Below, in pieces: positions 1-23,325 of a DNA stretch of 31,206 bases. The translations under genes were made by a program, and so were the position numbers. Numbering within the stretch: the stretch's first letter is position 1; every line of letters starts with the position of its first letter. Under the pieces are notes generated by a model. The model was not told the origin of the DNA. It did no database searches and was given only the letters and a program-made list of their open reading frames with translations. The DNA comes from a virus: the IMG/VR virus record IMGVR_UViG_3300013285_000048, positions 1 through 31,206 of that record. One strand, 5' to 3'.

Positions 1-267
1 TTCGTTATACAAACTAGCATTAGTTCCGCTAGTGTTTGGGGTCAAATATGTAATAATTCCGGTAGGATCAATAGTAGTTCCGCCATTGCCAAATGCCATT
101 TGGTAAACAAAACCGTTACCGCTATCGGCTAGACTTTGCGCTAGGGCTATACTAATGTTTTCATAGTGAATAGCGTTGCGCTTATCCATGTAGATTTCTT
201 TAGATTCAGGGTCAAATATCTTAATATGTCCCTCAATATGAATTCCTGTTGCGTCTTTAGTCTGCAT
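1..267 (-). CDS. Conserved phage protein, probable virion component (C-terminus outside window)
   Basis: The first 89 codons of a gene that runs off the left edge. I translated it from the ATG complementary to 265-267. The protein begins MQTKDATGIHIEGHIKIFD and later reads YQMAFGNGGTT and TPNTSGTNASLYNE. The pattern 'NAIHYEN... QMAFGNG..T...TG.I.Y..PNT.G.NA.LYN' is one I recognise from a conserved, functionally unassigned family in phage tail or structural gene clusters. The start is supported by a purine-rich AGAGAG a few bases upstream and by a late-promoter octamer 20 nt before the ATG. Because it opens a new late unit after the fibre and peptidase genes, a virion role is likely. The exact role is unknown. 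Confidence 0.6.
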   Translation of the reverse strand, partial: MQTKDATGIHIEGHIKIFDPESKEIYMDKRNAIHYENISIALAQSLADSGNGFVYQMAFGNGGTTIDPTGIITYLTPNTSGTNASLYNE

Positions 268-316: not shown

Positions 317-1981
317 TTAATATAATTTAGGGCTAGTTCTGCCGCTAATTCCGGTAGTTGTCCTAGGGTAAGCAGGTGCGGCTGAATTACTTTTTGCTCT
401 AAAAGCATAGTTTTGTTTAGGATATGTAGCTCCGGTTCTGTATAAAGCATAGATAGCGGTACCAATTGGTGTTCCTAATCCGGTGGCGGCATCCCAACCT
501 GCTGTACCTACATACCCGACTGTATTGCCTCCATGATTATCGCCGGTAGTAATATCATTAAATGCATTAGTATTTGAATACCATTTTGAATTAACAAACC
601 CTATCCGTTGGCCGCTTAGTTGATTAATCCTAGCTACCATGCCGGCCATTAAAGGTGCGGTAGCACTAGTTCCAACAAAACCAGCTCCATAGGTATTGGC
701 AGATCCATAATAAAAACTGTATCCAATAGCATGTGCCGATACATCTGGTATACCACGGCCTGTTAGTGTAGTAGCAGTGCTAGGTGTTGGATATGTTTTA
801 CTAGTAAGGCCTGTTTGCCAGGACGGAACACTAATCAAAGTACTAACTCCGCCGCCGCCGGCAAATGACCCTCCGCTTGTTCCCCAAGGTGTTTCTGCGG
901 TAATAATGTAACTACTATTAAGTGTAACTACAGTGCCTCCTGCACAAAGAACTAACGGACTAGTTCCAGGATATTGAACTGTATATGTGGGGCCGCCACT
1001 AATTGCTCGTACACCGTAGTCGCCGGCCGCAACAAATACTGTTATTCCTTTTACTGCACAACTGGCTAATGCTGTTTCAAAAGATGACCGCTGGCCGCTG
1101 GCCCAATTAGTATCAGTAGTACCCCAACTAATACTAAGCACACTAGGATTATAGGTTGTATCGTTAGCTACTGCGGTTATAATATCTATAAATCCCTGAA
1201 AAGTGTTTGGAGCAAAATAAATGACTTGCTTGGCCAATGGTGCTACGGAACCAACACACCAAATATCAAGCATAACTTCTCCGCTAGAATTGGCATCAGC
1301 TCCGCCGTCGTTGACTCCACCGTCAACACTAACATCCGATATGCTGGGGTTTGCCCAGCCGATTTGTCCAAATGTACTAGTTAGATTTGCCTGAGTCCAG
1401 CCACCTCCTAATTCTAAAATAGCTACGCAAGCACCTTTACCTTGTTCATTATCCCCGACTGCCGGATCTTTAGGAAAATTATATCCCTTGGCCAGTTCAT
1501 TAGGAAAAGGACTACTGTAAGAATTAGCTTCTAGACTGGGATCTTGTTTAGCATCAAATGTAAAAGTTAATGAATTATCTAATCCAAAAACTGATTCTAC
1601 TACTGTAGAAATTTCTGTAGGTATAGTTAGTTGTCCGCTATGTGTATAATAGATTCTGGTGTTGTCTGTAACAGTTTCTAATGTTATAGAAAATAGATTA
1701 TTAAATTGCTCTGCGGTACCTATTATTTTTACTACAGCTCCGCCGTGATGTGCTTCACTAACTGTTAGACCATTAGTACTGGCCCACTCTACAACTTTTT
1801 TTAAATTTTTATCAGTAGCTCCAAACTGGTAAACAAATTCGTTGTGATCTAAAATTGGATGATCTCCATCGCAAACACCACTTACATACTCTTCTAATGT
1901 CATGCCGTTGTCATGCGTATCTCTCACGAGATAGACACTGATCATCAGATTATCAGTTAACAAAGTATTAGTAGTAGTCAT
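317..1981 (-). CDS. S53 family serine-carboxyl peptidase (sedolisin/kumamolisin-like), phage-encoded
   Basis: A 554-residue endopeptidase in the layout of secreted sedolisins: a pro-kumamolisin-type propeptide (about residues 12-140), a short linker, then the catalytic domain (about 166-515). The S53 signature residues are visible. Glu235 and Asp239 lie in GEVMLDI with the family's E-x3-D spacing. The oxyanion Asp321 is in VAAGDYG. The nucleophile Ser439 is in GTSATAP. The C-terminal calcium site is represented by FNDITTG (Asp476) and AGWDAATGLGTP (Asp497). The enzyme therefore looks intact. No signal peptide is seen at the N-terminus (MTTTNTLLTD), which fits release by lysis or packaging in the virion rather than secretion. 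A 40-residue Ser/Thr/Pro/Lys/Arg-containing tail follows the domain. It is the last gene of the gp6-giant protein-fibre unit; the ATG is 1 nt past the fibre stop, with a weak AGAAG ribosome site. The substrate is unknown: host surface protein, environmental protein or virion precursor are all possible. Confidence 0.9.
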   Translation of the reverse strand: MTTTNTLLTDNLMISVYLVRDTHDNGMTLEEYVSGVCDGDHPILDHNEFVYQFGATDKNLKKVVEWASTNGLTVSEAHHGGAVVKIIGTAEQFNNLFSITLETVTDNTRIYYTHSGQLTIPTEISTVVESVFGLDNSLTFTFDAKQDPSLEANSYSSPFPNELAKGYNFPKDPAVGDNEQGKGACVAILELGGGWTQANLTSTFGQIGWANPSISDVSVDGGVNDGGADANSSGEVMLDIWCVGSVAPLAKQVIYFAPNTFQGFIDIITAVANDTTYNPSVLSISWGTTDTNWASGQRSSFETALASCAVKGITVFVAAGDYGVRAISGGPTYTVQYPGTSPLVLCAGGTVVTLNSSYIITAETPWGTSGGSFAGGGGVSTLISVPSWQTGLTSKTYPTPSTATTLTGRGIPDVSAHAIGYSFYYGSANTYGAGFVGTSATAPLMAGMVARINQLSGQRIGFVNSKWYSNTNAFNDITTGDNHGGNTVGYVGTAGWDAATGLGTPIGTAIYALYRTGATYPKQNYAFRAKSNSAAPAYPRTTTGISGRTSPKLY

Positions 1982-1982
1982 A

Positions 1983-3284
1983 TTAAGCTTCTAATTTGAG
2001 ATAAGTTAAAGTTATAGTAATACTAGACTGCGTTACTCCGCTATTGTTATAAACTTTCAAATACAAATTAGTAGTTACTGGAGAATCAATATTATAACCA
2101 ACAGCGGCTGGTGAGAAATTTGTGTTAGTTGTAGATGCGCCGGTTGTTATAGATTCAGCAACTATTCCACTTCCTGGAGTTGGATCAGTTGTAATACTTC
2201 TGCTACTATCGGACGCCATTGCGGCACTATTTGTATAAATGGTTACCCAAGATCCTACACTAGCTTGTATGTTATACAATGCATATCCTTTAGCAACTGA
2301 AATTGTAACAGTTGAACTTGTTTGGTAGGCTAAACTTCCTGTAGTTGCTACGGCCGTTGTACGACTTTGCAAACCCGATACAGGCAAATCTGTAGCTACT
2401 AATGCACGGAAAGTAGGATTGCCAGCACCTGAACTTGGTGCGGCATACACATAATTTTGTGTTTGACTTCCAAATGTTGTATTAATATCCGATGCCGCGG
2501 CAATAGTTAATACGCCTGTACTGGTTGTACTCTTTACAATACCGGTTGCTAATGCACTTGTTCCCGGAGCATAATCTGTTCCACTAGTTGCGGCGGTAAG
2601 TGTATTTGCTCCATTACCTTTAGCTATGCCGCTAATTGTTCCAATAGGTGCCTGGTATGATAGTGCTGGAATATCTGTAGCTACTAGTGTACGAAATGTC
2701 GGAGCGGCTGCGTTGCCTGAGATTGGGCCTGCTAATACATAATTAGCTGTTTGTGTGTTCCATGCGGCTGTCAGCACACCAGTTGTAACTACAGTACTAG
2801 TGGTTATATTAAATTGTGTAGGTAAACTTAAACCAACACTAGTAACAGACCCCGAGCCAGTTGGTACTGCCCAACTTAAAGTTCCGTTAGTAGAACTTGC
2901 TAATACATAGTTGTTACCGCTAGGATACGCACTAGGAAGAGTGTAAATTTGAACTGCTGGCGCTGTTCCTGCTTGTAAAGTTATAGTGCCGCTAGAACTT
3001 CCTGATAATATTAAATTGCCAGGAAACGTAAATGTACCGTCAGAACCAAGACTAACTGTATATCTTCCGTTAGTCAAGACTGATCCAGTTACACCCCAAT
3101 ATAATAAAGATCCATCTGTATATAAAGCCTTTCCAGCATTGCCGGTTTTACTAGGTAGTGTACTGGCTGCTAAAGTTGTATATAATTCTGCAAAATTAGC
3201 ATTTATTTTTTGTGCGCCAACACGCAAGGGATCCCCGGTTTTATCGCCTGGGGTCGCTCCTATGTTTATGATTTGTTGTGTCAT
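1983..3284 (-). CDS. Tail fibre / receptor-binding protein
   Basis: A 433-residue tail fibre. The N-terminus (INIGATPGDKTGDPLRVGAQ, then KINANFAELY) is the attachment-end signature common in T4-like marine phage fibres. The shaft (about 80-300) is Gly/Ser/Thr/Ala-rich and low in charge. It contains a duplicated module ending TFRTLVATDIP (about 176-206) and TFRALVATDLP (about 272-301). The C-terminal domain (about 305-433), ending ITLTYLKLEA, resembles a globular tip found on other phage fibres. I chose the ATG at 3282-3284 rather than the TTG at 3300-3302. AAGGGA sits 7 nt upstream of the ATG and would lie inside the coding region if the TTG were used. That ribosome site overlaps the stop codon of the giant protein gene, so the two are probably translationally coupled. 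Host specificity is expected to reside in the C-terminal domain. Confidence 0.8.
   Translation of the reverse strand: MTQQIINIGATPGDKTGDPLRVGAQKINANFAELYTTLAASTLPSKTGNAGKALYTDGSLLYWGVTGSVLTNGRYTVSLGSDGTFTFPGNLILSGSSSGTITLQAGTAPAVQIYTLPSAYPSGNNYVLASSTNGTLSWAVPTGSGSVTSVGLSLPTQFNITTSTVVTTGVLTAAWNTQTANYVLAGPISGNAAAPTFRTLVATDIPALSYQAPIGTISGIAKGNGANTLTAATSGTDYAPGTSALATGIVKSTTSTGVLTIAAASDINTTFGSQTQNYVYAAPSSGAGNPTFRALVATDLPVSGLQSRTTAVATTGSLAYQTSSTVTISVAKGYALYNIQASVGSWVTIYTNSAAMASDSSRSITTDPTPGSGIVAESITTGASTTNTNFSPAAVGYNIDSPVTTNLYLKVYNNSGVTQSSITITLTYLKLEA
2382..2471 (-). repeat. Tail-fibre shaft module, copy 2
   Basis: Encodes fibre residues about 272-301 (GSQTQNYVYAAPSSG... TFRALVATDLP). It is the second copy of the shaft module, about 96 residues downstream of copy 1. 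At the DNA level the copies share the stretch atctgtagctacta and diverge elsewhere, so this is an old duplication or one kept by selection on the protein. Confidence 0.7.
2667..2759 (-). repeat. Tail-fibre shaft module, copy 1
   Basis: Encodes fibre residues about 176-206 (NTQTANYVLAGPISG... TFRTLVATDIP), the first copy of the shaft module. The order Q-T-x-N-Y-V-x-A-x-P-x-S-G then PTFR-LVATD is the same in both copies. Confidence 0.7.
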
Positions 3285-3294
3285 TTTAAATCCC

Positions 3295-6200
3295 TTAATC
3301 AAATGTTAAATTAGTACCGTCTAATGTATCACCGGCACTATCAAATTGTTCGGTTGCTATAGTACTTATTGTTTTATACTCTTTATACCAAATGCCCGGA
3401 GTTGCACGTAGGAATTCGCTGACCTTTCCTGAGTCGTATAACACATTTGTAGTTTGATCCCAACTTTGTCCTGTAGTTTTAATTACAGTAATTTGTGTTC
3501 CAAATGATATTGCATTAGTTAATGTTATTGCCGCAGTTGTACCGTCCACAGTAAAGTCTGCTGTAAACGGAACATCTCCTTCTGGGCTGTATGGTGCTTG
3601 GTTGATATTAAATGCACTATAAGCTGTTTTCTTCAAACGAATATTTCCAATAAAGAATTTCCATACTTTACTGCTGGCAATACCTGTAGACAGAACAGTA
3701 TTAGTTCCATCAGCATTAACTATCACAGTGCTAACTATATCATAGAAAGTTGCGCCGCTAATATGGCTTGTTAAACATCTATAAGTGTAAACTCCAACAT
3801 TAACAATCATGCCTGCTGGGTAAGTTGCACCACTTTCCCATATAGTACCGTCGTTATAGCCGCCGACAAACACTTCAATTTCATTTACACTCTTTGGAGT
3901 AAAATCTAAAGGTACAATTAAACTACCATCGCTGATAATTTGTTTAATAACTTGTGTATCTAAATATGGTAATGTTTCACTAGTACCAATATCTTGTACT
4001 GCGGTTCCTTGTAAAGTTAGTGTTTGTACACCAGTACCAAGTGTACCTCTACGTAATTTACTTAATGTGTTTCCATCCTTGGCAAAATACTCAATGCGTT
4101 CTCCGCGAATTTCAACTACGCCGGGACGGTTGTTTGCCGGATTAGGTAAATCAAATGTAGATGCATTATCTACTAGTATCTGTGTATCATTCCAATGTAA
4201 ATCTCTTGCTAACATAGCTTGTTTATTTGCACTTAAACGCTTATAGCTTACACGGTTTAGCATATCTTTGAACTGCATGTAAGCAATACCAGCACGTAGT
4301 ATATTGCTACCAAATGTAATCAGTGTTACTTTATCAGTCTGTATCAAATTAGCACCAAGTGTAATACTTTGATGGTCATCGTTAAGTTTATAATCAATAC
4401 TAGGTGTTAACAATGTAGTGTTCTTAATCACCCAGATATAATTGTCGTTAACAACTGGTCGATCTAGCTTTAATAAGCCTCCAGACATATTCTGATAATA
4501 GTAGTAATCAGAAGTATCTGCAATTAAAGTTGCACTAGTACTAACACTAATTGTAGTTCTTTCAATATCTAAAATATCATGTTTATAACTACTAATAACT
4601 TGTACTAAATGAGTATTGTCATAGGCAGTTTTAAATGTAATTTGATTTGTAGCTGGATTATACAAATAACTTTGATTAGTTATTACACTAATAATCAACT
4701 GTTGTCCAGTATAATTTTTATAAATGTTTTTATTAATCTTAATTGTAATACCGCCAAGATCTACAAGATAATCAGTACCCTGGGTCAACAATGTATTTCC
4801 AACTATTACATGAATGTCAGTTGCCGGGATCGAATATGGAACAAATTTAGTTTTATCGATTGAATAATTTAATCTATTGCTACCAATTGTAAAATATGTA
4901 TTACTTGGTGCTTGTAAAATATTCTGATCTACACGCACAATCATATTAGATTCATTAGGCAATGCATTACCAATTGTGTTTTGTAATGTATAGGTGGTTG
5001 CCCCAGTTGTTGCAATAGTTTCTACCTTAGTAATAGAGTATGCTTGATCGATACCATTAACAATAATAAAATTAATTACCGATCCGCTGGCCGGTGGTAG
5101 TGCGAATCTAAATGCTATTGCATTTGACAATTCATAGCTTGCATCAGTTTTAAATATACCAGGGTTAGCTACTGCACCATCAACATATACTAGACTATTA
5201 ATCGAAGATACCCAAGAAGCATTCGTAACAAACTCAGTTGTCGATCCGTCTGCAATAAAATAATCAATATCTAATACATTAGCACCGTTAAACCCAATGC
5301 TGAATAAAGTAACAGTTGCATTAGCGGTTGGGGCAGTTGTAAATACTACTTGATTATTTGGATAATCTACAATATAATCGTTAGTTATAGTTGTTGTAGA
5401 CATTGTTTTAATTAAATTATCGACTTTAACAATAACTGCACCTGGACTATTTGGAGTCTGTGTCAACTTGAATGTTTTAGTAGTACCGTTTGCTAGATAG
5501 TTGTCTACTTTTATTTGACCAGATCCGGTATTTGGTTTATCAAATACCTTAATAGCTACAGTATCTACCACTTGCCCTGGAACAACTTCTTCTGGTGCTG
5601 GACTTGTAGTTGGAGATACTAGATCGTCGCCGTCAACAATAATGTCGTCTGCGGCAATACCTGTAGCAGTTGCGTATGCACCACTTAGTGTACTGATATC
5701 GCCGCCGCTTAAACTTGTATCGTAGTCTGCATCTTTAGGTTTAACACTACCATCGCTGGTAGTTTCTCTAATAATAAACTCGTCTCCAGTTAATACAGTA
5801 AATGCCTTAGCAGTTGCCGAGTTACCATCTACTACAATGTCGGTTATTCCACCAAATATTGTGCCAGCGGTTCCGCCGTCGTCTGTAGTGGCATCAATAA
5901 TATCTGTACTTAAACCGCCATCGACAACCGTATAAGGGCTAGGTAAAGTAAATGTATCAGTTGCACCATCTGCTAAGAATGTATTAACAACTGCATTTGG
6001 ATTAACTAAGGGTGTTAATGTTGTCTTGGCCGCTAATATAGCAGTTGCGCTGGCATTCAATGTAGCTGTTGGTTGTGTTACCACCGGTTGTGGACTTGCC
6101 GCACTAGTTACAACACTTAACAATGTAGTAATATTATTACTAATAAGTGTACTAGCTAATCCACCATTTGTCCATGCTGGTGTAACTCCTGGAGGAGTTT

Positions 6201-9200
6201 TAACTTGGAATATTGCTGTTTGCAATCTTGTTACAGTTGCAGTAGTTATAATAGATTGTGCTAATGAATTTAACTTGGCAAATAACCCAGTCCAGAATGT
6301 AAACGGTTGTAGGAAACCATTATTGTTAATATAATACCAGTAGTCTATACCTTGATAGATTGTTTCTCTATTTCCACCTTTAAACAAATCATAAGTCAAC
6401 CCTTCAACAATATGCTGAATTCTTACTTGGAAATCGGTATGATCAAACACAACACTTGGATAGTTTGCGGTTATCCATGCAATTAATTCTGCTTGAATAA
6501 AATTAATATTCTCATCTAATAACCAACCTGCTTGACCGCCACTTGGATCCTGTGGATTCGATGCTGATAATGCTAACCATGTTGGAACTACTCCGCCTGA
6601 TACAATATTTTGTATTGTGTTTGTTATTAAAGTATATCCACTAGCGAATGTAGGATCTGTCAGCGCAGATATTACTGCTGGTAATTTTGCTATATTAGCA
6701 ATAATATTATTAATACTTAAATTAATTTCTTTAGATCTATAACCATAAGTTGTAATAAGATTTCTTAAAGTTAAACCAACTCTAATAGTTTGAAATTGCT
6801 GGCGGTCGTATGCAAGATCATAGGCTAATGCTTCAATTATTTGTCCAATATATAATGCAATATCATAATTAGGATCATCCAATCTAATTGGATTCAAACC
6901 GCCAATAATACTAATTGTAGTACCGGCTATAATCTTAGTATTAGTCAAATTAGTTAAACTAATATGCCCGTCAGTATGTATGATAACATCGGTCGGTTGT
7001 GCTAAATCTCGTTCAAATGTTACATAGATACCGTTAGGAATATTTCTATATAAAATAGAACTTATTTTAACTTTAGTACTGTTAACAATAGATGTAACTA
7101 CTGTGCTATAGCTAAATGCATGTACATCATTGCATGATACTTTGTCGCCGACTTTAATTCCGGCTGTACTTGTTACAGTTACAGTTGAACTACCTTTTAT
7201 ATTTTCTGAGAATACCAAAGAGCCGCTAGGTAATGAGTCAGGGGCGGCACTCAATCTTACTGTAACCAAATCAACTATACTGAATACGGTCTGGCCGGAT
7301 GCGAATCCAGTACCAAGTACTTGCATACCAGCTACAATATTTGCTGTGCTGTCTAGTGTCAGCACGTTTCCGTATACACCCGACACTTGATTAATACTAA
7401 CAAAGTTATGTGTGATTCCACTAGTAGCTAAAACAACTGATGCAGTAACATAAGGATTGATATCATGTATATTATATGTGTAGCTATTGGTAACACCATC
7501 GCTTACGTAGGATTCAGTATTAATAGCTCTCTTATAAATGTTTAATTGAGTATTATTAGTAGGAACATACGGCAATGTAAATGAATTTGTTCCGGCAGTT
7601 ACTACAGTGATATAATCTTTAAATGTTTCATCATAGCTATCCCACTTGTCTGCAAAATATGGTAAACTATCCCAACCATTCGAAATTTGGAAGCCAAGGC
7701 CGTTAATAATTACACCACCGTAATCAATACCAGTCATTAACTGAGCCAGGTCTTTACCTAGTTGTCCAGATTCAGGATTATAATAATACTGTATTCTATC
7801 GGCAAATCCTAAGAAACTTTCATCGATAATATAAGTTACAGCAATAGTAGAACCCTTTGCAGGCGCAGTTGTAAATGTTATAGTACCAGAGTAGCTTGTA
7901 AAACCTTTACTAGTGTTAGAAACAATATTTAATACATAATTATCGCGAAGAGCCGGTACATTATTAACTGTTACAACACTTTGTCCAATACGATTATCTG
8001 GAGCCCAGATTAACGGCCATTGAACACGAGATCCTGTACCTGTAAATGTTTCAACTTTTTGTAATTGAGTAATATAATACTTACGATCAACTCTATCAAA
8101 CTTTATACCAATCTTGTTAGAACGTACAACACTATTGCCAATAATAGCAACAGCATTTGCCTGAACTCCGTCTATACCAAGACCACCATTTAATACAACT
8201 TTAGGTGCGGCATAGTATCCAGTGCCTGGAGTAATGAGTACAACTCTGTTAACTGCTCCGTTACTGATATATGCCTTAGCAGTTGAGCCAGTGCCGCTAT
8301 TGCCAACAAAAACAACATCAGGAGCTGTTACATATCCCGAACCGTTGCTAGTTAATACTATTTCAGTAATTTCATAACCAGCATTATCTAACCAAAATTT
8401 CCAAGGATATGTACTGATGGCAGGATCCCCTGCTACAAGCTCTCCGTTCGTTACAAATGCTTGTACAAGTGTGACAGCATCTTTTTCAAATATTGGTTGT
8501 AGATCAAAGTCGGTAATTGGTAATTGAGCAGTATCTAAACTATCATAGTTGCTAATGTATTCTCTAATTTTAGTTTTATAAGGTTTAACTTCAGCAATAT
8601 AATCTTCAAAATTGCTTAGATTATTAGGTTGATAAGTTACTGGCTGGTCTAGTGCTCCAACATTATGTTGTGCTTTTACAAAACTAGTTTTAAATATCCA
8701 GTCAACGTATGGCTGTTCGCTGTGTACATATCGTACAGTAGCAAAAAATAAATTTGACCAGGCACCGTTTAAATCGTTAATGAAAATATTTTTCTTTAAC
8801 GTATCAAGGATAATTCTTAATTCAGTAACTGCTACTGCATCGAACCCAGCTTCGTCGTAGATAAAATTATCAAAGCCCAATGTTGTGTTAGCTACTTGAT
8901 ATAAATTAGAATTTAATTGTATTGTACCATTTTGCATACCTACAACATTATAACTTTGTGTCCAGTCTACACTTACAATATCTGCATATTTTTCTAGTAG
9001 AAGCCAGCCACCAGCATTGGCAGTTCTAACTTTAACTACTTCACCTATCTTAGGATTAATAGAATTTAGTTCTACAAATGTAGCAACAGAAAAATCTGCC
9101 GCAGTAAACTGACTAAATCCAGTTGCATACCAATCGGCATAACTCCAGAAATTTCTAACATCGTAGGCTTGTGTTAATGTTCTATTCCAAGTTCTTTGTA

Positions 9201-12200
9201 TTGGATCATATGTATAGATACTCCAGTTGCCATTTGCTTGACTATCACTTTTTACTAATGCACTATAATCACGTATTGATAATGTAGTAGAATCTGTATA
9301 ACCAGCACCGCCAGAAATAATAGTTACCCCAGTAATTTGTCCTTTGGCATTAATTGTTGCGCGAAGATTTGCTCCTGCACCTGTGCCGTTTACACTAACA
9401 TACGGAGCAATTACATAGCCCTTGCCAGCAGTAATTATATTAATTCCTACAATTTTACCATCAGTTATTACAGGACTGATATTAGCTCTTGTAAAACTAC
9501 CAATGTTAGCATAAGTTAGTTCAGCGTCTGTATCAAATGTAGTATCGTATAACCCAGATAATGCACTAGGTTGGGGATCGTAACTTTCTAATTTAAGAAT
9601 GTTATCGTTTTCTACAATTTGATTTACTATCAATACTTGATTAGCTAATTCAATAAATTGTTTCAATGCTTCAAAACGATTTATAAACATTCCTTGACGT
9701 GGACGATTTTCAACACCGTAACGTAGTTTCACTGGTAATGCTGGGTCTGGCACTAGGCGGCCTGCCGAATCTCTTCCGCATAAACTATCAATCCATTTTT
9801 GTTCGATGATAGGCGGAATATATGTAGTAGGGTCATTACTAATAATTTTCCATTGGCTATGTACATTTTGATCTGTTTTCTTACCTAGCCAATATTCTAC
9901 ACTTAGAACAACATCTGTAGATTTTAGATACTGTTTAGTATTAATAAGACTAAATGTGTTTAATCCAGTTAGTGCAAGATATGTATATCCATATCCTCGT
10001 GGATTACCAATGAGATTTGCAACATCTTGTGCGGCTAAATGTCTACCTGGAATATTTGGAATAAACTTTTTATTTTTAACCCAGTAATAGTATGTAGTTG
10101 CAAATGTTTGTGTTGTACTATTATATGTTTGTTTTATACTGTACACAGAATCACTATACAAACTTTGTCCACTAATGCCTAAAGCTATTCCGGCAGGAGT
10201 ATCTGCTTGGGAATCCCAATCGCTAGGTTTTAATTTTGAGCTAACCCACTCGTATATATCAACACTTGCACCGGGTGCAAGTGTAGTCCAGTTTGTATTT
10301 CTATAAACAATATCGTCTTCGTATGCATTTAAGAACTTGGCTGTTCTTAAATCCCACCATAGCATACCTACTTGGTCAGTAGTCCATGCAGACGTTGGGC
10401 TAACGTTTACTCCATCAATTCCAATAGAATAAGATGCGGGATCGTAGAATGATTTATATTTTAATTCTTCTTCAGCAACTCCTGCAATTTTTCCCTGGGC
10501 TGGATCAATAACATCAATATATGTTACAAGGTTGCCAGTCACCCTATTGTATAAGAATGCTTTTTTAATTTTACTAACATCTGGTTTTTCAATTTCTTGA
10601 TGTGCAATTTCCCATGTAAATTTATTTGGTTTCTTGCCGTAGTTGTATACTAATCCAGATTGCAGGCCTTGATCTAATCCTGCTGGAGCACTAACTAATA
10701 TATGGTTAGATCCAACTGCAAATCCAGTACCGTAACCGTCTAAAACTAAAGATTCTGAAGTTATAATTGCCGCGGTGCCTGTACCTGAACCATCGCTGGT
10801 TGCAGTAAATTGTACTCCTACTGCATTTTTTGCGGCTCCAATTTTTGTAAAATCAGTTGTGCCAAGCGATAGTATAGCATAAGTGTCGCCTGCTACAAAA
10901 CTGCCAGCAGTAACTACTGGGTTTACTTTTGTCAACGACTCGCTGAATACCCACTTATTAGCATAACGATCAAAGACGTCAACGCGACCACTATTAATTT
11001 CTGTTACAGTAAACGCTGTAGTATTTTTATCAAAAGTAGTATTAGTTTTATCAAATGTAGTTGTAATGGTAGTATCGCCGTACTGACTATAAACAGCTAG
11101 TGTTTTATAATTGTTCATGAACGAAACATTTACACCAAATAAACCATTTTGTTCTGGCTGGTGATTTACTATGTTGCCGGTATTAACATATAAACCTGTA
11201 GAAGAATTTATACTATAAATTCCTACTCGGCCTTGATTTGTAATTGCTGGTGTAAATCCAGAATATACTGGATCCGATATAGCAATATATGTAGCATCAT
11301 TGCTAATAGAAACACTTTGGCCAAATAACGAAGTACCTGCTTGAGTTATTGTTTGGAACAATACATCGTTTTTATATATAGCAACTGAAGATCCTGTTGT
11401 CGGATCATTCCAAGAGCTGATAGCGAGAGTAGTTTTATCATTACTAATAGCTAGTGTATTTCCAAATTTTTGTCCAGCAGTATTACCAGTACGAGTCCCT
11501 GTTAAATCGTATCCCCAGCCAACGACTGCAAATTTAATAACGCCATCAGGTGTGGAATTAGGGCTACCACTTAGTAACAAAGTTGTTGAGTCAACAACGC
11601 CAACTACTATTTGATCATCAGTAAATCCTGTACCTAGCACATACATACCAGCACGAATACCAGCTGTATTTGTGACACGCAATGTTGCACCAGAACTTCT
11701 AACTGGATTGTAAGCCGATTGTGCTTGTATTACTGTTGAATAAACTAGTTTGTAAACCTTACCAGTATTACTATTATAACCTGGAGCAGAAATATACAAT
11801 GTATCATTACTAAATGCAAAGGCAGATCCAAAGTTTTCATTTGCCGCAGGATATGGACTTACTATAGTATCTACTAAATTAAAAATGTTATTAGCATCTT
11901 TTTTATATAGACTAATTGCACCTTGTCTTGCTGGGCCAGCTTGTGTTGATAATTGTGTCCACTGTCCGTTTCCAGAATCTGGAGACAACTGGGGTTGCTG
12001 TGTACAAGTCATCAGACCCGATGCGTATGTTAGTGTTACTGGAATTGAACTACCTTGTGTTGCAGTGATTCTAAAATGTTTAGAATCAAGGATATCTAAT
12101 ACATAATATATCACACTAGCAGTAACACCGCCGTATGTGTTTCCTGAAAAAATTACTTGATATCCTGGAGCTAATACACTAGTGTCTGCGGTAACTAACT

Positions 12201-15200
12201 GATTACCTGCAATAGTACTTGTAACTGTTACATCAACTTGTCCATAAATTTTTCTTGTTGATGTGTATACTTTACCTTTAAAAATTACCACTGTATTAGT
12301 TGGATAAATTACTGTTCGGTCCCATGTACCGTAACTACTAACTGGAATATAATATACGGGTTTCCAATATGTAGATATTGCTGTTGGGGCTGTGTTGGCC
12401 GGCACTACTACAACTGCTTGATAAAATAAACTATTGTAGGACACAACAGCGCCAGGTCCGTAGATTACCGTAGTATTATACGATCCAAAATAATTTGTTA
12501 CAGCATATCCAGCAAGTGGACTTCCTGTAACCATATAGCTGCCATCATTAGAAATCAATATATTAGTAGCACTTGCACTACTTGGATTCGGATTTGTAAT
12601 AATAGTATATGTACTATTTGTATTAGTCGATACTGCTTTTTGTCCAATCGTAATACTGACACCAACATTAACTGCGGTAATTAGTGTATCTACTGGAACT
12701 CCAGATCCTTCTATTACGCCACCTATCATGTAAGTTTGTGCAGAAGTCATTGCTACAGTTTTACTTCCAGTAGTAGTACTTCCTATTGTTACAGATACTG
12801 TGTTGATTGCAATAAACGGTGCTGGAATTACCTGACGTTGCACCCAGTCTGCATCTACACTTGCTTTGTCATATGTGATAATTTCGCCGATTGACGATCC
12901 AATTGCGGCAACATTGCCCTGACTGTTAATAGCAATCACTTGTCCAAAACGTAATTGATCTTGTGGAGAACTATTGTTTATATTAGAAATAGCATAAACA
13001 GGATTGTATTTCCAAGTAGTCCATTTGCCAGATCCGTTATCGTCGGTCCATATTAATTCGTTAGGGTACAATTTGCTAGTAAGAACTGCATCAATTGTAT
13101 CAATCGATTGTGTACGCTGTGTGATTAACGCACAAACTACTAGCTGACCATTTTGTGTAAATGTACTTGGAAACCCAGTAATATCAGCCGAAACTGTAAA
13201 TGAATTTAAAGATACACTAAGGATTTTATAAAATCCTTTTAGTAGAGGTACTTGAGATAGACCGATATAAGAGCCGACTGCAAAGTTAACAATATCATGT
13301 GTGGTTATTGTTAATATTTTTGTATTAGTTGCATAGGTAACATTTGTTACTATAGTATGTGTATCGGTAAATCTATAAACATTCCAACTTGGGCCATCAA
13401 ATGTTACCCAAATATACGATCCTTCCTGGAACGTATCAATATCATAGTTAACAATTTCTGCAACATAACCAATACTTAAAAATACTTCTGAGGCGTTTAC
13501 ATACCCAGCACTACGTAAAAACGGAGCATAGTTTTCAAGCATTGGCCACGGAGTTGAATTATAGCCTAAAGGTTTTAGATACACATCCGAAGTCTTTTGT
13601 TGTATAATAAATGTGCCAAGCAAATCTGTGTTTGTACTATTGAAAAGTGCAAAACCTTGAGGATTAAGTTTAAACAATCCTTCGTCTAGAATAAATTCAA
13701 TATTATCAAATGAATTTGCCGCGCCATACTGCCCAACACGTAACGCCCATTCTTCATAGAATGTTAAACTTTCTTTGTTATCGCTACTAAGAACATCAAA
13801 TAATTTATTTAAAACATTCAATGTACCTTTTTCTCGAATCATACCTTGATAAAATTTAAACTCACTAACATCGTCTCTAATAATATTATCAAGATACTGG
13901 CGTTTTTGATATCCAATTAAATGCTGAGCAACTTTTTGTTGGTCTGAATCAAAATTATCGCTGTCTAAATTATAAAAATCTGTAAACTGACTTGCTTTAT
14001 AAGTCCAGTTTGGAATTAATTTTGCTGTTGGTTTCTTGGTCAGACGTGTCCAGCTCGATGCATTGAATGTTTCTGTACCTGGCAATGCGATAGTTGCACT
14101 ATAGTAGTATCCTTGGAATCCTACAATATCACCCAGTGCATAATCTTGCCAAGGTTGCCAAGTTTGAATATTGGCTTGGTCGAATATAAATCCTGGAACA
14201 TCGAGGCCGCCGTACCAATCGATACTAGTATGTCCGGATACTTTAATTCGTTCTTGTCTATAACCACTTTCTGGATTATAAACAACATCATTAAAGATTG
14301 TATTATTATCTAATAATACTACTTGCTCGTTCTGTACTAGATAAAAACTTGCGCCATATATTCCATCTGTTGTTCTCGGGGTGTAACTAACAATATTACC
14401 TTCTCTGTAGCTATCTAAAAATAAGGAAGATATAGGTGTACCGTCAACTTTAAAAATTTCATAGTCGTAGAATGGATTGCTAATATTATCAACTACTGCT
14501 GTTGGTGTTTCAAATGTTAGTTTAATTGCGGCTGGGCTTAGACTAATAACGCTAGCACCTACTTCACTTAACCCTTCTAGTTTATTATACTTTTCAGGTT
14601 CAAAAATATCAGTAGGAGAAATAGCATATAACGCACTGTAGTAATCTCCGTTATAGCGAACAATACTACCGTATGGTACTGGCTGATTTGCTCTCCAATC
14701 GCTCCACTTATCTTGACCTGAACTCCAATTCTGTGTAGTCCAGAATAAAAACTCTTTAACACTTGTTTCCCAGTTGGATACGGTTGCTAGTGTATTATTA
14801 AAATCATCAAATATAAATCCTTGATCTTTTAAGTATTCACCATACCCTTGCAAGAAATCTACAACATCTTGTATTTTAGCAAACTCAGTACCGTAAGGAA
14901 CTGTAACGACATCGTTTTTATCCCATAACTTTCTTAAGGTAGCAGTTTGTCCGCCGACTATCGGTAAACTAGATAATTTTGCAAAATATGAAGGATCAAA
15001 CCCGGCTCCTGCTGTAGTAGTAACAGTTGCTCGATAGAATACACCGCCATACTGAACAACTGCACCCATTGGGTACTGTTGTCCTGCGGTCCACATACTA
15101 TAGTTCTCACTAATTCCGCCTACATTTATTGTATTACCCGATTGTATCCATGTATAATAATTAAAATAAGGCTGTGTTTTACTATATCCCTTTACTTCAA

Positions 15201-18200
15201 ACCCACTTTGAAGTTTGGTAATAATAACGCCACTATATGTTATTTTCTTTATTGGACTAGAAGTGTTTAAAGAAACTTTAAAATTTTCTTTTGGAACAAA
15301 TACACTACCGGTACTCAACGGTGTTTTACTATCCAATAATAAATTAAACTGATCTTTACTACTAAATGCTCCAAGTCTGTATGACAACTGAGCTTGTATT
15401 GTTTTTAAATCAGAAACATAGGTATTATAAGATTTTATGTTGTTACTGAAAATAAAGTTTAAAATATGATCAACAATATAATTAACAAGTCCCGCAGTTT
15501 GAACACGAACAGTACTTGTATAAATGCTCGGTAGCATAATTTCCGTTGGATTGATACGTAATCTTGTATCCTTATAAATTAATTGTCCTGCTAGGTTACG
15601 TACGACTCTAGAACGATCTAATAAAATACCAAAAGTTTTTGCAGGTGTCAATATTGTTGTAGATAAAATTACGCTAAAAGGATAATGACTGCTCCGACGC
15701 CAAGCGGCTTCGACTGGGCTTACATCTCCGAATACAAAATTTGCATCAACTCCGCTAGTAATAGGACCTAGTGCTAGGCCACAGGCCAACGGACTTTTTA
15801 ATAGGCCATCACTATCTACAGGAATACGTCCCATTAAGAAAGGTTTAGCATACTTGGGAACTTTAATTGGTGCTTTACCGGGTTCACGAATTATGCCATC
15901 TGCAATATCCTGCCACATAGGCAAGTTATCGCCTGTGTATGGAGACGGACCGTATACCGCTACCCACCAACTTGGTTGTAAACTGTACCCTAACATTTCC
16001 CAAGGAGTTAGATTAGGACGATCTGTATCTAAAAGATAACGATATACTCCTCTCCAATATCCCGGTACACTTGTGCCATCTGGTGCTGAACTGTTTGTAT
16101 AATTGTAAGTAAACGAATTATTAATATCATAGCTTAGAGGTTTAGTAAAATCTCTACCGGCTAAACTAGTCCACTTATAAAAACTAGGAGCTAATACTTG
16201 ATTAAACTCATCTAAACTATAATCGGTTGATCTATTATAACTAGGAATGGTATCTGCTATATCAAAAATAGCAGGATCATAATCAACTTTGATGTTGTTA
16301 AAGATACGTTTTTCTAATTCTAAAATTAAATTATCACGATAATCTCCATATGCTAGTACTTGACTGCCATCGTGTCCTTGAATCATTAGACGGGGAGTTA
16401 CTAAACTAGTATCTGTATAAATCTGTGGAACATATTTTGGCCACATACCCATCTTTGTAGGAGTTGCTGGAACATAGCATCCGTCTGTATTATCGTATTC
16501 AATTGTAGTAATAATATCACTGTTGTTCATAATAACCGAAGGAGTTATTACGATAAATCCTTGACTACTAAACGTATAATCTTGACCGTATATTAATTGA
16601 TTCCCGTTTAAATAAACTCCAACAGCTTTATTTGATAAGTTATCTAATGTAAAAACATTAGACAAAGGATATGTTTTAATTCTATAGTCAACTACAGTTA
16701 GATTGGTTTTAACAGAAGCACCGTATGGCACCATGTCACTAAAATAATAAGGACTTGTTTTTGGTTTATCTTTGTTAATTGTTTGTAAAACTAGTTCCAC
16801 AATAGTAACAGGATCACCGTCGACACCAAGCGATGCGGCTATCTTTACAAAGTTTCTTTTAAAGCTATTATAATTATCTCGTGCTTGTTCAATACTTCTT
16901 ATAATATTATTAGATTGATTTGTAATATGGTACAGCGAAAGGCTCATAGGGCCGCTGTGTTGTACAAATTTAGTACCATATTGTGTAACGTTTCCGAGGT
17001 CTCTTAAATTACCAGGGCCTGGGAATGTTCCTACAAACATATCAAGATTATCTACAATAGAATTTACATGATCAATCACTTCGCCCAATGTAAAATCTCC
17101 CATTGCATTATTCAATGGATTATTTTGTAGACTAACCGGCACTTCATAATAGCCATTTTCATTAACCGGCTGAACCGTAAATGTACGGATAGTTAGTACA
17201 TCTCTTAATGCAATATCAGTGTTTAATACAACTTGTTTGTAATAACTACCGTCAATCACTGACCAGTTTGCTTTGTCTAATCTATGTCCATTGACATAGA
17301 CTTTAACAACTAAGTCTGTTAGTTTAGTAATATTATCAAAAATATCAATATCAAAATTATTAATTTTTCCAGAATTTTTATAAATTCTAATAGCGGCTTG
17401 TAGATTTGGAGTTGTGCAAGTTTGCCAGCCATTAAGATATTTTAATGCACCTGCAAATGTTTGACTTACAAGATACCCGTTATTTGTATACTTGGTAATA
17501 ATATTAATAGTTTGTTTATATTGAAAACTATCAGTAGCAAGATTAAAATTAAAAACAATGTCTCCAATATTACTGATATTTCTATAGGACAACGGAAACC
17601 CTAACATGCTATCTGAAATACCAGATCCTATTTTATAAGAAAATAATTTTGTACCTTTAAATGTTGAACCATTATATACAGTATTATCTCCGTAACTTAC
17701 ACTGTTTTCATCTACAATATCAAATAGAGGTGCTTGATTGACTGTTATTTTTTGCTGTGCTTCAACCCAGCTAGTACCGTTGTACCAATAAGATTTTCCT
17801 TGATTTGTTATGCCGGTACGAATTAATGCAACTTGATTTAGTTCAGGTTGGCCAATTTCAACTAGATGAATTTGCTTACTTCCTGAACTAAGATGAATTA
17901 CATCAACAAAATCAATTCGATAAATTTTATTCTTTACTAATCGATCTTTTTCAGCAGTAAAAATAATGTGTTGGCCGTTAGTTACCAGTTGGCCGTCAAC
18001 GTGATAGCCGAACGCTCCTTCAACGTCTGAAAATGCATCTGTAGTAAAATGGTCTATTACATCAATATCAATTATTGATGTTGTTCCAGAATTAAACAAT
18101 TTTAAATTAGCTTCAAATTCTATAATAGGTCTAACTGCTCTGGAAGTTTGATCTAAACTTGCTACCTGTCCGTTGTATGCGGCGCTAGCCATAAGTACAT

Positions 18201-19374: not shown

Positions 19375-22300
19375 TAGTTACTCCGAACGATGCACTAGTT
19401 ATGTTTTGCGATGATACTACAGAATTCAAACCTGCTCCTGTTACAGTCTTAATATTGTCAGATGTTAGGCCAGCTACTACATTAATATCTGTTGCAGTAG
19501 CACAACTAACAAATATCTTGTTGCTAGGGCATTGAATTTCAAATAAACTACCAAAATATAAATTACCTTGTTTAGGAACAATAACGAAGCTAGTAATATC
19601 TGGACTTAGTTTTGTTAATACATAAGTTGATAATTCTGTAAAATAAAATGTATCGCCAAAGTTCCAATTTTCTAAAGCAAAGAATTCATTAAATGCTGTA
19701 ATTATGCGGGCAATAATATCATTGTTACTAGCAGTACTGCTGGCATTTTTAACTACGTTAAAACTTGCTTGTAAATTAAAATCAGCCTTACTACCAAATA
19801 ATAAAATATAATCAACAGGATGATATACAATCTCGTCCGATATTGATTTAATTAAATTTAGACCAGTTGATAGTAGACTATTCAGTTCGCTACTACTAGG
19901 CGGAAGAGGTTCAGAAATATTTGCGCCTAACAGCCATTGTCTAAATTGTGTATCGTAATCTTTAGTTAACACATATACATCCATAATATTACTTGCACCT
20001 GGATCAATTCTGCTATCATAGTCTGCATTGTGAATATATTGAAACTTTAAATTGTCGCGGCCAACATAAACTTTATAATCTAGTGTTGGAATTAATGTAC
20101 TAGTAACGGCATCATATTTTTTAACAACTTGTTTATCTACAAAGTAAAAATACTGGCTGGCTATATATTGAGATAATGCGCCCACATTGCTTTGTGTAGT
20201 GAAAATCATAACAACATTGGTTGCATTACTAATATAACGATAGTCTTCTTGTCCTTGACTTATTAGATATTTTTCCTGAATAATGTATTTTGTTAATGGG
20301 TTTGTGCCAGGAGAAACAATGTCTAAAAACAACTGTGGATTATCAACTACGCCGTCATTATTTGAATCTGCAAATGTTACAACAATTTTACTTGGGTCGA
20401 TGTAACCATCAAGCCCGTTATATTCTGAGACAATTTGCCAAGTAGCATCAACTGTGAATGGGCTAGTATTATCTGGTTGTGTATTAATACTTAATACCTT
20501 TAATTGATCTACAATAGTATTACTAGATACAGTATCGTAAACCTTAACAGTAGTATCAAAATAGAATGTTACTTCTCGATTACTTTCGAATATATATCGC
20601 AATAGTCTACTAGAAATTGTGTATATTTCATTGTTAGTTGTAAATAACAATATCCAACTAGAATCCTGTTGTGTGTTAGTTGTATCACCTTGACTACCAA
20701 GATTAAATGCGCCAGATGCATTAAGGTTGGTTTCAAAAATTATTTGCCAACTTTGAATAGTAGCATCATAGCGCAATCCAAATGGTTTATTGTTGAATAT
20801 TAAATCTATCATTGTAGTGATTACACTACTTGTAATTGTTATATTTAACTTTGGAATAATTTGACTTACAACCGCACCCGATGGGATAATTGTACTCATT
20901 GTTATTGAACCAAATCCTGTAGACAATACACCTTTACCAGTACCGGTTCCATCAGTTGTTACTGAAACGACTTCAGCCCACAAATAACTAACTAGTCCTT
21001 TCATATTTGAACTAGCAGGAACTATTGCGTTGCCATTAGTTGAATCAAAGTATCTTGGTACGCCATCAACCGATGCGGCTGTAAATTTCACCAGGGCACC
21101 GGCTGTAAAATATTTTAAATCTGTACTAGTATAAGAACCTACTTTATAAGGTGCGGCATCAACTGCCGATCCAATATAACCAGTAGAACTATTACTATCT
21201 GTAGTTTTTTTGTACCATGCAATGTTTAAACTTTCAGTAATATAATTAATAAAATTTGAATAATAAAAATTACGTAAGTTTGGATCATCTAACAATTTAA
21301 ACACAGTATTGTAAACAATACCTTCAATGTCTGTTTTAGTTAGATAAGAAAAATTTGTAGTAGAAATATAAGGCTCTTGATATAAGATACCATCGTCTGC
21401 AAATAAGTTTGTACTTGAATACTTTCCAGTCGGGTCTACTAAATCAAAATATCTGCTAATACCGCTACTAGAACGATTAATTGCTTTGACTTTTGCAACT
21501 TTTTGTGTAACTGCTAAAGGACTAATATTATAGTCTTCGCCAGTAACCATTCTATTTTGTGTATAGTAAACTTGCGGAGCATTAGTTTTAATATTAGCAT
21601 TAGTTTCAGCTATGCTGGCATTATTAACACTGGATGCTAAACTAAGAGTAACCGATAATGTTTCAACTTGATTTCTTGCTGAATAATAAGGAATACTTAT
21701 TGCTACATTTATAATGTCGCTTGGATTGACAGTATATGTTAAACCATTACTAACACGATAGTAAGCTCTAAAATTACCTAACGGCAAATCTCCAAATGTT
21801 CCGTCGCCAAATCCAAGGCTGATAGAATCACCAGCTCTCGTAATCACACTATAGATAGATTTTATTTTTTTATTTAAACTATTATAGATAACATTATTGC
21901 CAGACAGCGAAGGAACTTGTGTCCATAATGTATCTTCACTACCGGTATTTTGATTTAATTTATATAACCACACATCAGAGTTGTTAATATTCTGTGTGTT
22001 AATATCTATGATTTCATTTGTACTAGGTTGAGTGACTTGAAATGTTCCTTGATTTAATGAACCTTGTGTAAAGTTTAAAAAGAATCCAGTGTTAGTACTT
22101 CCAGCTCCGTAGCCATCATCTTTATATATAAAAGCTAGACCGTTACCAACTTTAGGAGGTTCTTCATAGATATAAGATTTTCCCTTAAAGGTTGTGCTGG
22201 TTATTTCAAAATTCATACTACGACCGGCAACAGTTTTAGTAAAAGAAAATACAGGAACATTTGTATTAGTGCCGTTAAAACGATACTGGCCAGTTGCAAT

Positions 22301-22843
22301 ATTATAAATGCTTGCTTGATCGATTGGGCTGCCGAATTGTTGAGTCTTAGGCAAACTTGCATTGATTACTTTAATAAACTGATCATACCAATTAGGATTA
22401 CTTGGATCATTCCAAGTAATAACTTGCCCACTCATGTTGATGCCGTTGCTATCTAATACTGTTTCAGTTGTAGAAACTGTATGAAATTTTAGTAGGCCTT
22501 TTGCTGACATGTTTCTGTTAGCATTATATCCTATCATTCTCGATAATCGTAATACGCTGTCGCGGCGCTCTGCTAGTTCTAAAAAGTTTTCACGAGCATT
22601 TAAGTCGGTACGGAACGCAATACTTTGTCCTACAAATGCAATAATGTCAATTAAAGCCAAGTACTCCGAACTTTCTATATAATCATTAAAATCTTCTGGA
22701 AAATTTGTACGGATATAATCAATCATAGTGCGGCGTAGATTTTCAAAGTCGTAACTTTGGAAGTCTGCGTTCTTAAATGACTGATAAATTTTATGCCAAT
22801 CTTGGTTTACTAGCAGGTTATTTTGTCTATCCGTGGCGCTCAT
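19364..22843 (-). CDS. gp6: Baseplate wedge protein gp6-like (enlarged)
   Basis: A 1159-residue homologue of T4 gp6, which forms the inner ring of the baseplate with gp7 and gp53 and drives sheath contraction. The N-terminal 120 residues are the clearest match: YEFNL-type helices seen here as SYDFENLRRTMIDYIRTNFP, then SSEYLALIDIIAFVGQSIAF and NFLELAERRDSVLRLSRMIG. A second conserved segment, QNRMVTGEDYN, lies at about residues 429-439. T4 gp6 is about 660 residues, so about 500 are extra, mostly beta-type sequence in the central and C-terminal parts. The ATG has AGGA-type pairing 8 nt upstream and a late-promoter octamer 18 nt upstream, making it the first gene of its unit. Its last codons overlap the start of the giant protein gene by 11 nt. 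Confidence 0.88.
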   Translation of the reverse strand: MSATDRQNNLLVNQDWHKIYQSFKNADFQSYDFENLRRTMIDYIRTNFPEDFNDYIESSEYLALIDIIAFVGQSIAFRTDLNARENFLELAERRDSVLRLSRMIGYNANRNMSAKGLLKFHTVSTTETVLDSNGINMSGQVITWNDPSNPNWYDQFIKVINASLPKTQQFGSPIDQASIYNIATGQYRFNGTNTNVPVFSFTKTVAGRSMNFEITSTTFKGKSYIYEEPPKVGNGLAFIYKDDGYGAGSTNTGFFLNFTQGSLNQGTFQVTQPSTNEIIDINTQNINNSDVWLYKLNQNTGSEDTLWTQVPSLSGNNVIYNSLNKKIKSIYSVITRAGDSISLGFGDGTFGDLPLGNFRAYYRVSNGLTYTVNPSDIINVAISIPYYSARNQVETLSVTLSLASSVNNASIAETNANIKTNAPQVYYTQNRMVTGEDYNISPLAVTQKVAKVKAINRSSSGISRYFDLVDPTGKYSSTNLFADDGILYQEPYISTTNFSYLTKTDIEGIVYNTVFKLLDDPNLRNFYYSNFINYITESLNIAWYKKTTDSNSSTGYIGSAVDAAPYKVGSYTSTDLKYFTAGALVKFTAASVDGVPRYFDSTNGNAIVPASSNMKGLVSYLWAEVVSVTTDGTGTGKGVLSTGFGSITMSTIIPSGAVVSQIIPKLNITITSSVITTMIDLIFNNKPFGLRYDATIQSWQIIFETNLNASGAFNLGSQGDTTNTQQDSSWILLFTTNNEIYTISSRLLRYIFESNREVTFYFDTTVKVYDTVSSNTIVDQLKVLSINTQPDNTSPFTVDATWQIVSEYNGLDGYIDPSKIVVTFADSNNDGVVDNPQLFLDIVSPGTNPLTKYIIQEKYLISQGQEDYRYISNATNVVMIFTTQSNVGALSQYIASQYFYFVDKQVVKKYDAVTSTLIPTLDYKVYVGRDNLKFQYIHNADYDSRIDPGASNIMDVYVLTKDYDTQFRQWLLGANISEPLPPSSSELNSLLSTGLNLIKSISDEIVYHPVDYILLFGSKADFNLQASFNVVKNASSTASNNDIIARIITAFNEFFALENWNFGDTFYFTELSTYVLTKLSPDITSFVIVPKQGNLYFGSLFEIQCPSNKIFVSCATATDINVVAGLTSDNIKTVTGAGLNSVVSSQNITSASFGVTNGQ

Positions 22844-22890: not shown

Positions 22891-23325
22891 TTATTGTGTT
22901 AGCAGGCCGTTAGCTTGATCAAATTTTAATTTCAGGGTCTGACTAATATTGTACGGAATATATTTTAAATTTGCTTCAATTTGTAAACCAGTGTCGTAGG
23001 GTGTTATAAGCACATTACCTGCTTGAATTCGAGGATCATAATTAAGGATTTCATTAACATTTTGCAAGATAAGATCTTTAAGTTGCTCTGTCAATGGCTC
23101 GAATAGAAGATCCCAAATGATGGTTCCAAAGCCCGGTTGCATTAGTCGTTCGCCTTTGCGAATATAAAAATGATTGATCAAATCTTGCTTAATTAAATCA
23201 AAATCGTATAGTGTAAAATTTTGCGTATTAGTTGCAACTGTGCTAAAACCTCGATACATTTGAGGAGTAGCTTGTGTTGCATTAGGTCTTGCTGGAAGAG
23301 TTACTTTACTATATAGTTGGCTCAT
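22891..23325 (-). CDS. gp25: Baseplate wedge protein gp25-like
   Basis: A 144-residue member of the gp25/W family that links baseplate wedge and sheath in contractile tails and related secretion systems. The family core is clear: YDFDLIKQDLINHFYIRKGE at about 40-59, then RLMQPGFGT (60-68), FEP (75-77) and the strand pattern LQIEANLKYIPYNIS. The length is close to the T4 protein (132). The start is set by AGGAG 8 nt upstream of the ATG. The ATG overlaps the stop of the gp5-like gene in a TAATG arrangement, pointing to coupled translation. It is the last gene of the first late unit. Confidence 0.92.
   Translation of the reverse strand: MSQLYSKVTLPARPNATQATPQMYRGFSTVATNTQNFTLYDFDLIKQDLINHFYIRKGERLMQPGFGTIIWDLLFEPLTEQLKDLILQNVNEILNYDPRIQAGNVLITPYDTGLQIEANLKYIPYNISQTLKLKFDQANGLLTQ

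Follow-up and report, generated by a model that had tools for sequence, protein, structure and literature searches.

Gene Organization of the Locus

The window, i.e., the whole stretch of 31,206 nucleotides analyzed here (positions 1 to 31,206 of IMG/VR virus record IMGVR_UViG_3300013285_000048), carries on its minus strand genes for gp53-, gp5-, gp25-, and gp6-like baseplate proteins, a giant protein of 5359 aa, a gp9/10-like fibre protein, and an S53 (kumamolisin-type) peptidase, followed by the start of a gene that encodes 202 aa in related phages. The plus strand contains a gene for a gp55-like late sigma factor and then two genes placed like gp47 and gp46 of Klebsiella phage RaK2. The gp6-like baseplate wedge subunit (19364..22843, minus strand; 1159 aa, phrog_10646) is succeeded by the giant virion protein (3295..19374, minus strand), which is syntenic with the large genes of RaK2, Atu_ph07, S-CREM1, and S-H38 and lies upstream of the fibre gene (1983..3284, minus strand). 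The fibre protein has a gp9/10-like N-terminus; its probable ATG is at 3284, and the listed open reading frame starts with TTG at 3302. Its last ~125 aa (1986..2360, minus strand) form a C-terminal domain that precedes proteases in related phages. The S53 gene occupies 317..1981 on the minus strand as an intact open reading frame for 554 aa, with its ATG at 1981 and its stop at 317, and the place that it takes behind the fibre gene is referred to below as the slot. The conserved right flank of the slot is the 202-aa gene (phrog_11259), of which the N-terminal 89 aa lie in the window (1..267, minus strand). The gp5-like protein (23325-24611, minus strand; 428 aa) gave a match to the baseplate OB-fold and a weak one to DUF2345; it has no Pfam lysozyme domain, despite the PHROG name "hub and tail lysozyme", and its RaK2 counterpart is about twice as long.

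Regarding the identity of the phage, the gp6-like protein is nearest to those of Sinorhizobium phage Phosso, Agrobacterium phage Atu_ph07, and RaK2 (32-36% identity). The gene order of RaK2 (gp46, gp47, gp55, baseplate genes, gp6, giant protein) matches that of the window up to the RaK2 giant gene, and Atu_ph07 likewise has gp6 and a large structural gene, of 13 kb, at this place. The gp6 matches and the RaK2 gene order therefore point to the RaK2/Atu_ph07 jumbo group and not to T4 itself. The preliminary description of this DNA had placed the peptidase in a late unit of a T4-like phage; the order of gp6, giant protein, and fibre holds, whereas the affinity has to be moved from T4 to RaK2 and Atu_ph07. 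In the corresponding stretches of these two phages, no S53, no slot-type S8 peptidase, and no fibre end domain of the kind described below was found. The window record is a 31-kb fragment; relatives in which S53 and a gp6 homologue occur together are as long as 223 and 354 kb.

The S53 Peptidase

A Pro-kumamolisin activation domain (Pfam PF09286, Pro-kuma_activ, 9.6e-15) covers residues 25-136 (1574..1909, minus strand), is modelled with high confidence, and falls within the alignment to pro-kumamolisin (PDB 1t1e). The catalytic domain, at about residues 160-516 (434..1504, minus strand), was delimited by a phmmer match to kumamolisin and by Foldseek (6e-46) and VIA-align matches to 1t1e; a Pfam Peptidase_S8 match (2.9e-9) also runs across it. 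The closest solved structures by sequence in the PDB are pro-kumamolisin 1t1e (8e-80), kumamolisin-As (2e-66), and sedolisin (8e-17), and PHROGs contains no family for the protein. The alignment with 1t1e assigns Glu235 and Asp239 to the E-x-x-x-D catalytic motif (GEVMLDI; codons at 1265..1279), Asp321 to the oxyanion aspartate (AAGDYG; 1019..1021), Ser439 to the nucleophile (GTSATAP; 665..667), and Asp476 and Asp497 to the calcium-site region (NDITTGDN ... GWDAATG; 491..556), all on the minus strand. Each of the six residues aligns to the homologous position of 1t1e, the chain of which has Ala at the Ser position. They are kept in 63 of the 63 viral-contig S53s that are complete over these sites, within a set of 71 distinct sequences that includes a few from outside the phage clade.

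The structural model was built from an 85-sequence alignment, used in place of a 6-sequence alignment that had given a pLDDT of 37, and has a mean pLDDT of 90.9 and a pTM of 0.91. Aligned with 1t1e by VIA-align across residues 1 to 516, it gives Z 54.9, with 495 residues superposed at 2.5 A; Z is 45-53 against other bacterial S53s and about 27-29 against subtilisins. Nearly all of residues 519-554, the last ~36, have a pLDDT below 50, and the rest is ordered. This part, disordered in the monomer model, belongs to a phage-specific C-terminal tail (320..433, minus strand) that includes the tag discussed below (YPKQNYAFRAKSNSAAPAYPRTTTG). S53-like-fold proteins of the giant viruses Barrevirus and Homavirus (BFVD A0A3G4ZQ87 and A0A3G5A7D9) are also close to the window model. 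The gene is under purifying selection: dN/dS is 0.07-0.23 in eleven S53 pairs (0.14 for the window and the related locus L048) and 0 in one near-identical pair, as rough ratios with high dS in several pairs.

As judged from sequence and predicted structure, the window protein is a genuine kumamolisin-type S53 proenzyme, and the conservation of its residues indicates that it is apparently catalytically competent. The intact gene, its propeptide-plus-catalytic layout, and its six signature residues had been noted in the preliminary description, and all were borne out, with the coordinates correct and the gene on the minus strand. In common with kumamolisin and kumamolisin-As (MEROPS S53; PDB 1t1e, 1sio), the window S53 has a propeptide and a catalytic domain, the E/D/S triad, the oxyanion Asp, and the calcium-site Asp. 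It differs from kumamolisin, with which it shares about 33-40% identity, in being a phage protein encoded behind a fibre gene and in its extra disordered, tagged tail, and the propeptide is absent from some phage relatives.

The propeptide is missing from about nine slot S53s (407-416 aa), which retain the catalytic residues and the tag. Since these proteins occupy the slot without it, the propeptide is not essential in this setting, a point that modifies the preliminary reading of an enzyme made inactive and cutting itself. Loci of this ~408-aa kind are L078, L080, L083, L219, L220, L225, L230, and L249, in which the usual intramolecular chaperone is missing.

Distribution of Phage S53 Genes

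Searches of IMG/VR yielded 6, then 20, then 75 S53 loci in overlapping sets; the window-type S53 is not rare, having relatives at the corresponding position of dozens of uncultured phage contigs. The S53-bearing contigs extend up to 354,680 bases. A T4-type capsid gene is present in 5 of 10 examined and a gp6 homologue in 8 of 11, and exactly one pro-kumamolisin domain was detected in each of the eight contigs searched. Three S53 queries run by tblastn against 50,697 phage records gave zero matches, in agreement with the earlier statement that S53 is not a standard T4-like component. In a catalytic-domain tree, obtained by a quick method and unrooted, 40 viral S53s (33 from slots, 6 fused, and L093) lie on one side of a branch with an SH-aLRT of 100, and 41 bacterial and 4 other viral-contig sequences lie on the other. 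Scanning genome contigs with propeptide patterns returned no S53 matches, and scanning them with catalytic motifs recovered bacterial S53s.

S53 is mainly a cellular family, which would speak for a host gene that mis-assembly has fused to phage DNA. The likelihood of such an origin is negligible, because this gene neighbourhood turns up repeatedly in independently assembled contigs, of which some measure as much as 354 kb and combine a T4-type capsid gene with a single S53, the phage S53s form a separate clade, and nucleotide similarity between the window and the related locus L002 runs unbroken across the S53 gene. The chimera of host and phage DNA that, according to the preliminary description, would have refuted its claim was rejected on these grounds.

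Fibre Coupling and the Protease Slot

At the junction TAATATG in the window, the stop codon of the fibre gene lies 1 nt ahead of the S53 start. The earlier suggestion was to look for S53 genes beside fibres in marine phage genomes; in the IMG/VR contigs, the S53 start follows the stop of the preceding gene by exactly 1 nt in 52 of 75 viral loci, and nearly all of the genes preceding these 52 share one fibre end domain. The preceding genes vary in length and kind (collagen-like or gp9/10-like); the common domain comprises about 120-125 aa and finishes with Leu-Glu, Met-Glu, or Thr-Glu plus one more residue. A search of solved structures with this domain gave one insignificant match only. A Shine-Dalgarno sequence was considered as the cause of the conserved fibre end and dismissed as a general explanation, with a GAGG-like motif in just 14 of 35 loci. 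In one S53 lineage (L015, L016, and L018), a collagen-like fibre precedes the S53 gene, and DnaK-, ClpX-, and ClpS-like genes were seen nearby by eye.

Among the 80 best IMG/VR matches to the fibre end domain, the next gene encodes S53 in 48, S8 in 29, and neither in 3. The first figure overstates the share of S53, as the query alignment was drawn from S53-linked fibres, a bias that does not explain the S8 cases. In cultured phages, the same domain query matched 48 records, 43 of which are Synechococcus phages. An S8 gene stands next to the domain in S-CREM1, S-H9-1, S-H38, S-RSM4, S-WAM2, ACG-2014h, ACG-2014j, Sf-FR1, and S-CAM1; the S8 catalytic motifs are intact in eight of these nine, and S-CAM1 departs at the Asp site. 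The slot is therefore usually filled by a protease, either S53 or S8, in related phages. The cyanophage S8 proteases (S-H38, S-CREM1, S-H9-1, and S-WAM2; phrog_9158) stand in the slot behind the fibre end domain like the window S53 and share the tag with slot S53s (the window has a divergent form), and those of S-CREM1 and S-H38, with their common order of giant protein, tail pin, and protease, stand behind the giant protein as the window S53 does. They differ in belonging to an Asp-His-Ser family, in occurring in cultured phages, and in being annotated as proteases.

In S-SCSM1, ACG-2014i, S-BM3, and Sf-CH1b, the slot gene encodes a non-protease protein, and a small gene comes next. Proteins of this type at loci L188/L283 (S-SCSM1), L194, L197, L201, and L199 are of one family with similar ends, and each is followed by a tagged protein of 77-120 aa. 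In the siphovirus-type phages S-CRES1, PSS2, and S-CBS2, neither a protease nor a non-protease-plus-small-gene pair is annotated directly behind the domain. At two loci carrying the nearest relatives of the window S53 (L001, 3300006117_000049; L002, 3300013093_000118), the S53 gene follows that of the giant protein immediately, without an intervening fibre gene, and the stretch examined showed no fibre end domain; a fibre partner is accordingly not universal.

The C-terminal Tag

The tails of most slot S53s contain a tag, RPxxGxx[YF]PR, which also occurs in several slot S8s and in the small proteins behind non-protease slot proteins. The tag was absent from the bacterial S53 open reading frames recovered. 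In the window it has the divergent form RAKSNSAAPAYPR, as in its nearest relatives and in L048 and L053, and most relatives have the consensus form. Searched as a DNA pattern, the tag gave 14 occurrences in 13 of 17 phage records, about once per genome, and the reversed pattern gave none. By position, 12 of these fall within the slot gene or its small immediate successor; of the other two, one belongs to a 77-aa gene in a further group of this kind in S-H9-1 and one sits at the extreme end of tail-fibre protein SSCSM1_235. Because a further domain follows the tag in some S8 proteins, the tag is a motif and not a strict C-terminal signal. In the slot S8s of L184 (S-H9-1, 4371-6377), L195, and L189, the segment after the tag is cupredoxin-like, and this segment also matches the end of the baseplate-fibre connector phrog_677.

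Exchange of the Protease Cassette

Nucleotide comparison of the window with the S8-bearing locus L202 gave ~76% identity in the fibre gene up to window position 1975 and ~80% from position 317 onward. Between these two positions, which correspond to the limits of the S53 gene, similarity is absent, and L202 has an 879-aa S8 gene instead. Because similarity stops and resumes at the boundaries of the S53 gene, the slot protease is an exchanged cassette: the flanks stay, and S53 and S8 replace each other. Exchange is also seen within the S53 family, since the flanking proteins of L019 and L020 are 74-97% identical, and their S53s only 44%.

Probable Association with the Virion

Four S-SCSM1 proteins are marked as virion proteins in the GenBank record: 231, the fibre that has the end domain; 232, the product of the slot gene; 235, a fibre protein with the tag; and 228, which combines S8 and laminin-G. 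In S-SCSM1, 45 proteins were detected by mass spectrometry in CsCl-purified particles (PMC9602691), and we read the virion notes of the record as referring to this detection. Single proteins combine S53 with Ig-like and cadherin-like segments at L047 and L085 and with collagen-like repeats at L087, as expected of particle-borne proteins. The coupling to the fibre gene, the common tag, the protease-fibre fusions, and the virion-protein annotation of the related cyanophage modules together indicate that the window S53 is most likely virion-carried. The preliminary description had left the choice between a virion-carried and a lysis-released protease; the former is favoured by these observations, and the latter found no positive evidence.

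Proposed Function of the S53 Protease

Considering these features, the window S53 is probably an active, self-maturing protease borne on the fibre of the phage particle, docked by its tag and cutting protein of the host surface. The S53 would be translated directly behind the fibre gene, with a single nucleotide between stop and start, and after folding would cut itself out of its propeptide, like kumamolisin. Its flexible, tagged C-terminal tail may then attach it to the tail fibre or tail pin, probably via the conserved C-terminal domain of the fibre. On the host, it would cut a surface protein, such as an S-layer, outer-membrane, or pilus protein, thereby clearing a path or exposing a receptor. 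The slot is a cassette in which S53 and S8 substitute for each other. Counting against a fibre-borne protease are L001 and L002, with their S53s in place and no fibre partner seen, the non-protease slots of S-SCSM1, ACG-2014i, S-BM3, and Sf-CH1b, and the acid pH that S53 enzymes usually require.

The strict adjacency and coupling to the fibre gene would also suit an assembly factor, i.e., a protease that makes limited cuts to mature the adjacent fibre or giant protein and would not have to sit on the particle, and proteases are commonly used in phage assembly. Such processing had been put forward in the preliminary description, but it is unlikely to be the main task: the fibre end domain has the same conserved last residues whether S53, S8, or a non-protease follows, and fibres with this domain thus occur without any protease in the slot. 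Moreover, the giant protein is present in RaK2 and Atu_ph07 with neither S53 nor slot-type S8 found beside it, some phage S53s are fused to Ig-like, cadherin-like, or collagen-like segments, and a docking-like tag would be without a role. The adhesin-like, non-protease proteins in the same slot of several cyanophages, as well as cassette swaps between close relatives that resemble the exchange of host-range determinants, could instead suggest a receptor-binding or structural tip in which catalysis is secondary. This is somewhat less probable again, as the catalytic and calcium residues are kept in all 63 complete S53s, the S8 motifs are intact in all the cyanophages examined but S-CAM1, and the S53 genes are under purifying selection.

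An intracellular or lysis role, in which the enzyme degrades host proteins for the phage, would be in line with synthesis in the cytoplasm, as no secretion signal stood out when the N-terminus was inspected. It is nevertheless very improbable: the S53 gene lies in a block of virion-protein genes and travels with the fibre domain and the tag, and S53 enzymes usually need acid pH, unlike that of the cytoplasm. Beyond the fibre-borne, surface-cutting S53 favoured here for the window, a broader scheme for aquatic tailed phages has about an even chance of being correct. It would be a general plug-in system in which one fibre C-terminal domain takes interchangeable effectors (S53, S8, or an adhesin-like protein with a small adaptor) via a short tag that evolved or spread independently of the effector fold.

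Relation to Known Systems and Significance

The S53 family itself and annotated S8 proteases in cyanophages are already known. For Prochlorococcus phages P-HM1 and P-HM2, peptidases at the same genomic place, though in separate gene clusters, have been described (Sullivan et al. 2010; PMC3037559); in that passage, S8 is named, S53 is not, and the peptidases are not described as fibre partners. In the Melnitz paper, the word "subtilisin" appears solely in the name of a sheath gene, and the similarity in fold between tail-fibre proteins and a protease given in the HFTV1 paper is no more than weak. In literature searches combining sedolisin or S53 with phage, or subtilisin or subtilase with tail fibre, which covered few subscription journals, no such module was found, and neither the phage version of S53, the common tag, nor the swapping of protease families behind a single fibre domain was found described.

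Capsule depolymerase tailspikes offer the closest functional parallel to the proposal made here, as enzymes at the tail tip that remove a surface barrier and are exchanged as cassettes. The difference is that the target would here be protein and the enzyme a separate, tagged subunit, not part of one spike polypeptide. To our knowledge, phage fibre enzymes attack polysaccharides; the conserved slot for an active protease suggests a similar attack on the protein barriers of aquatic bacteria. As all three elements (slot, fibre end domain, and tag) are recognizable in sequence, the S8 version occurs in cultured Synechococcus phages, and virion proteomes exist, the idea is directly testable. If the tag is a docking peptide, it would explain how unrelated proteins come to be on one fibre and would provide a way to find further fibre-borne effectors.
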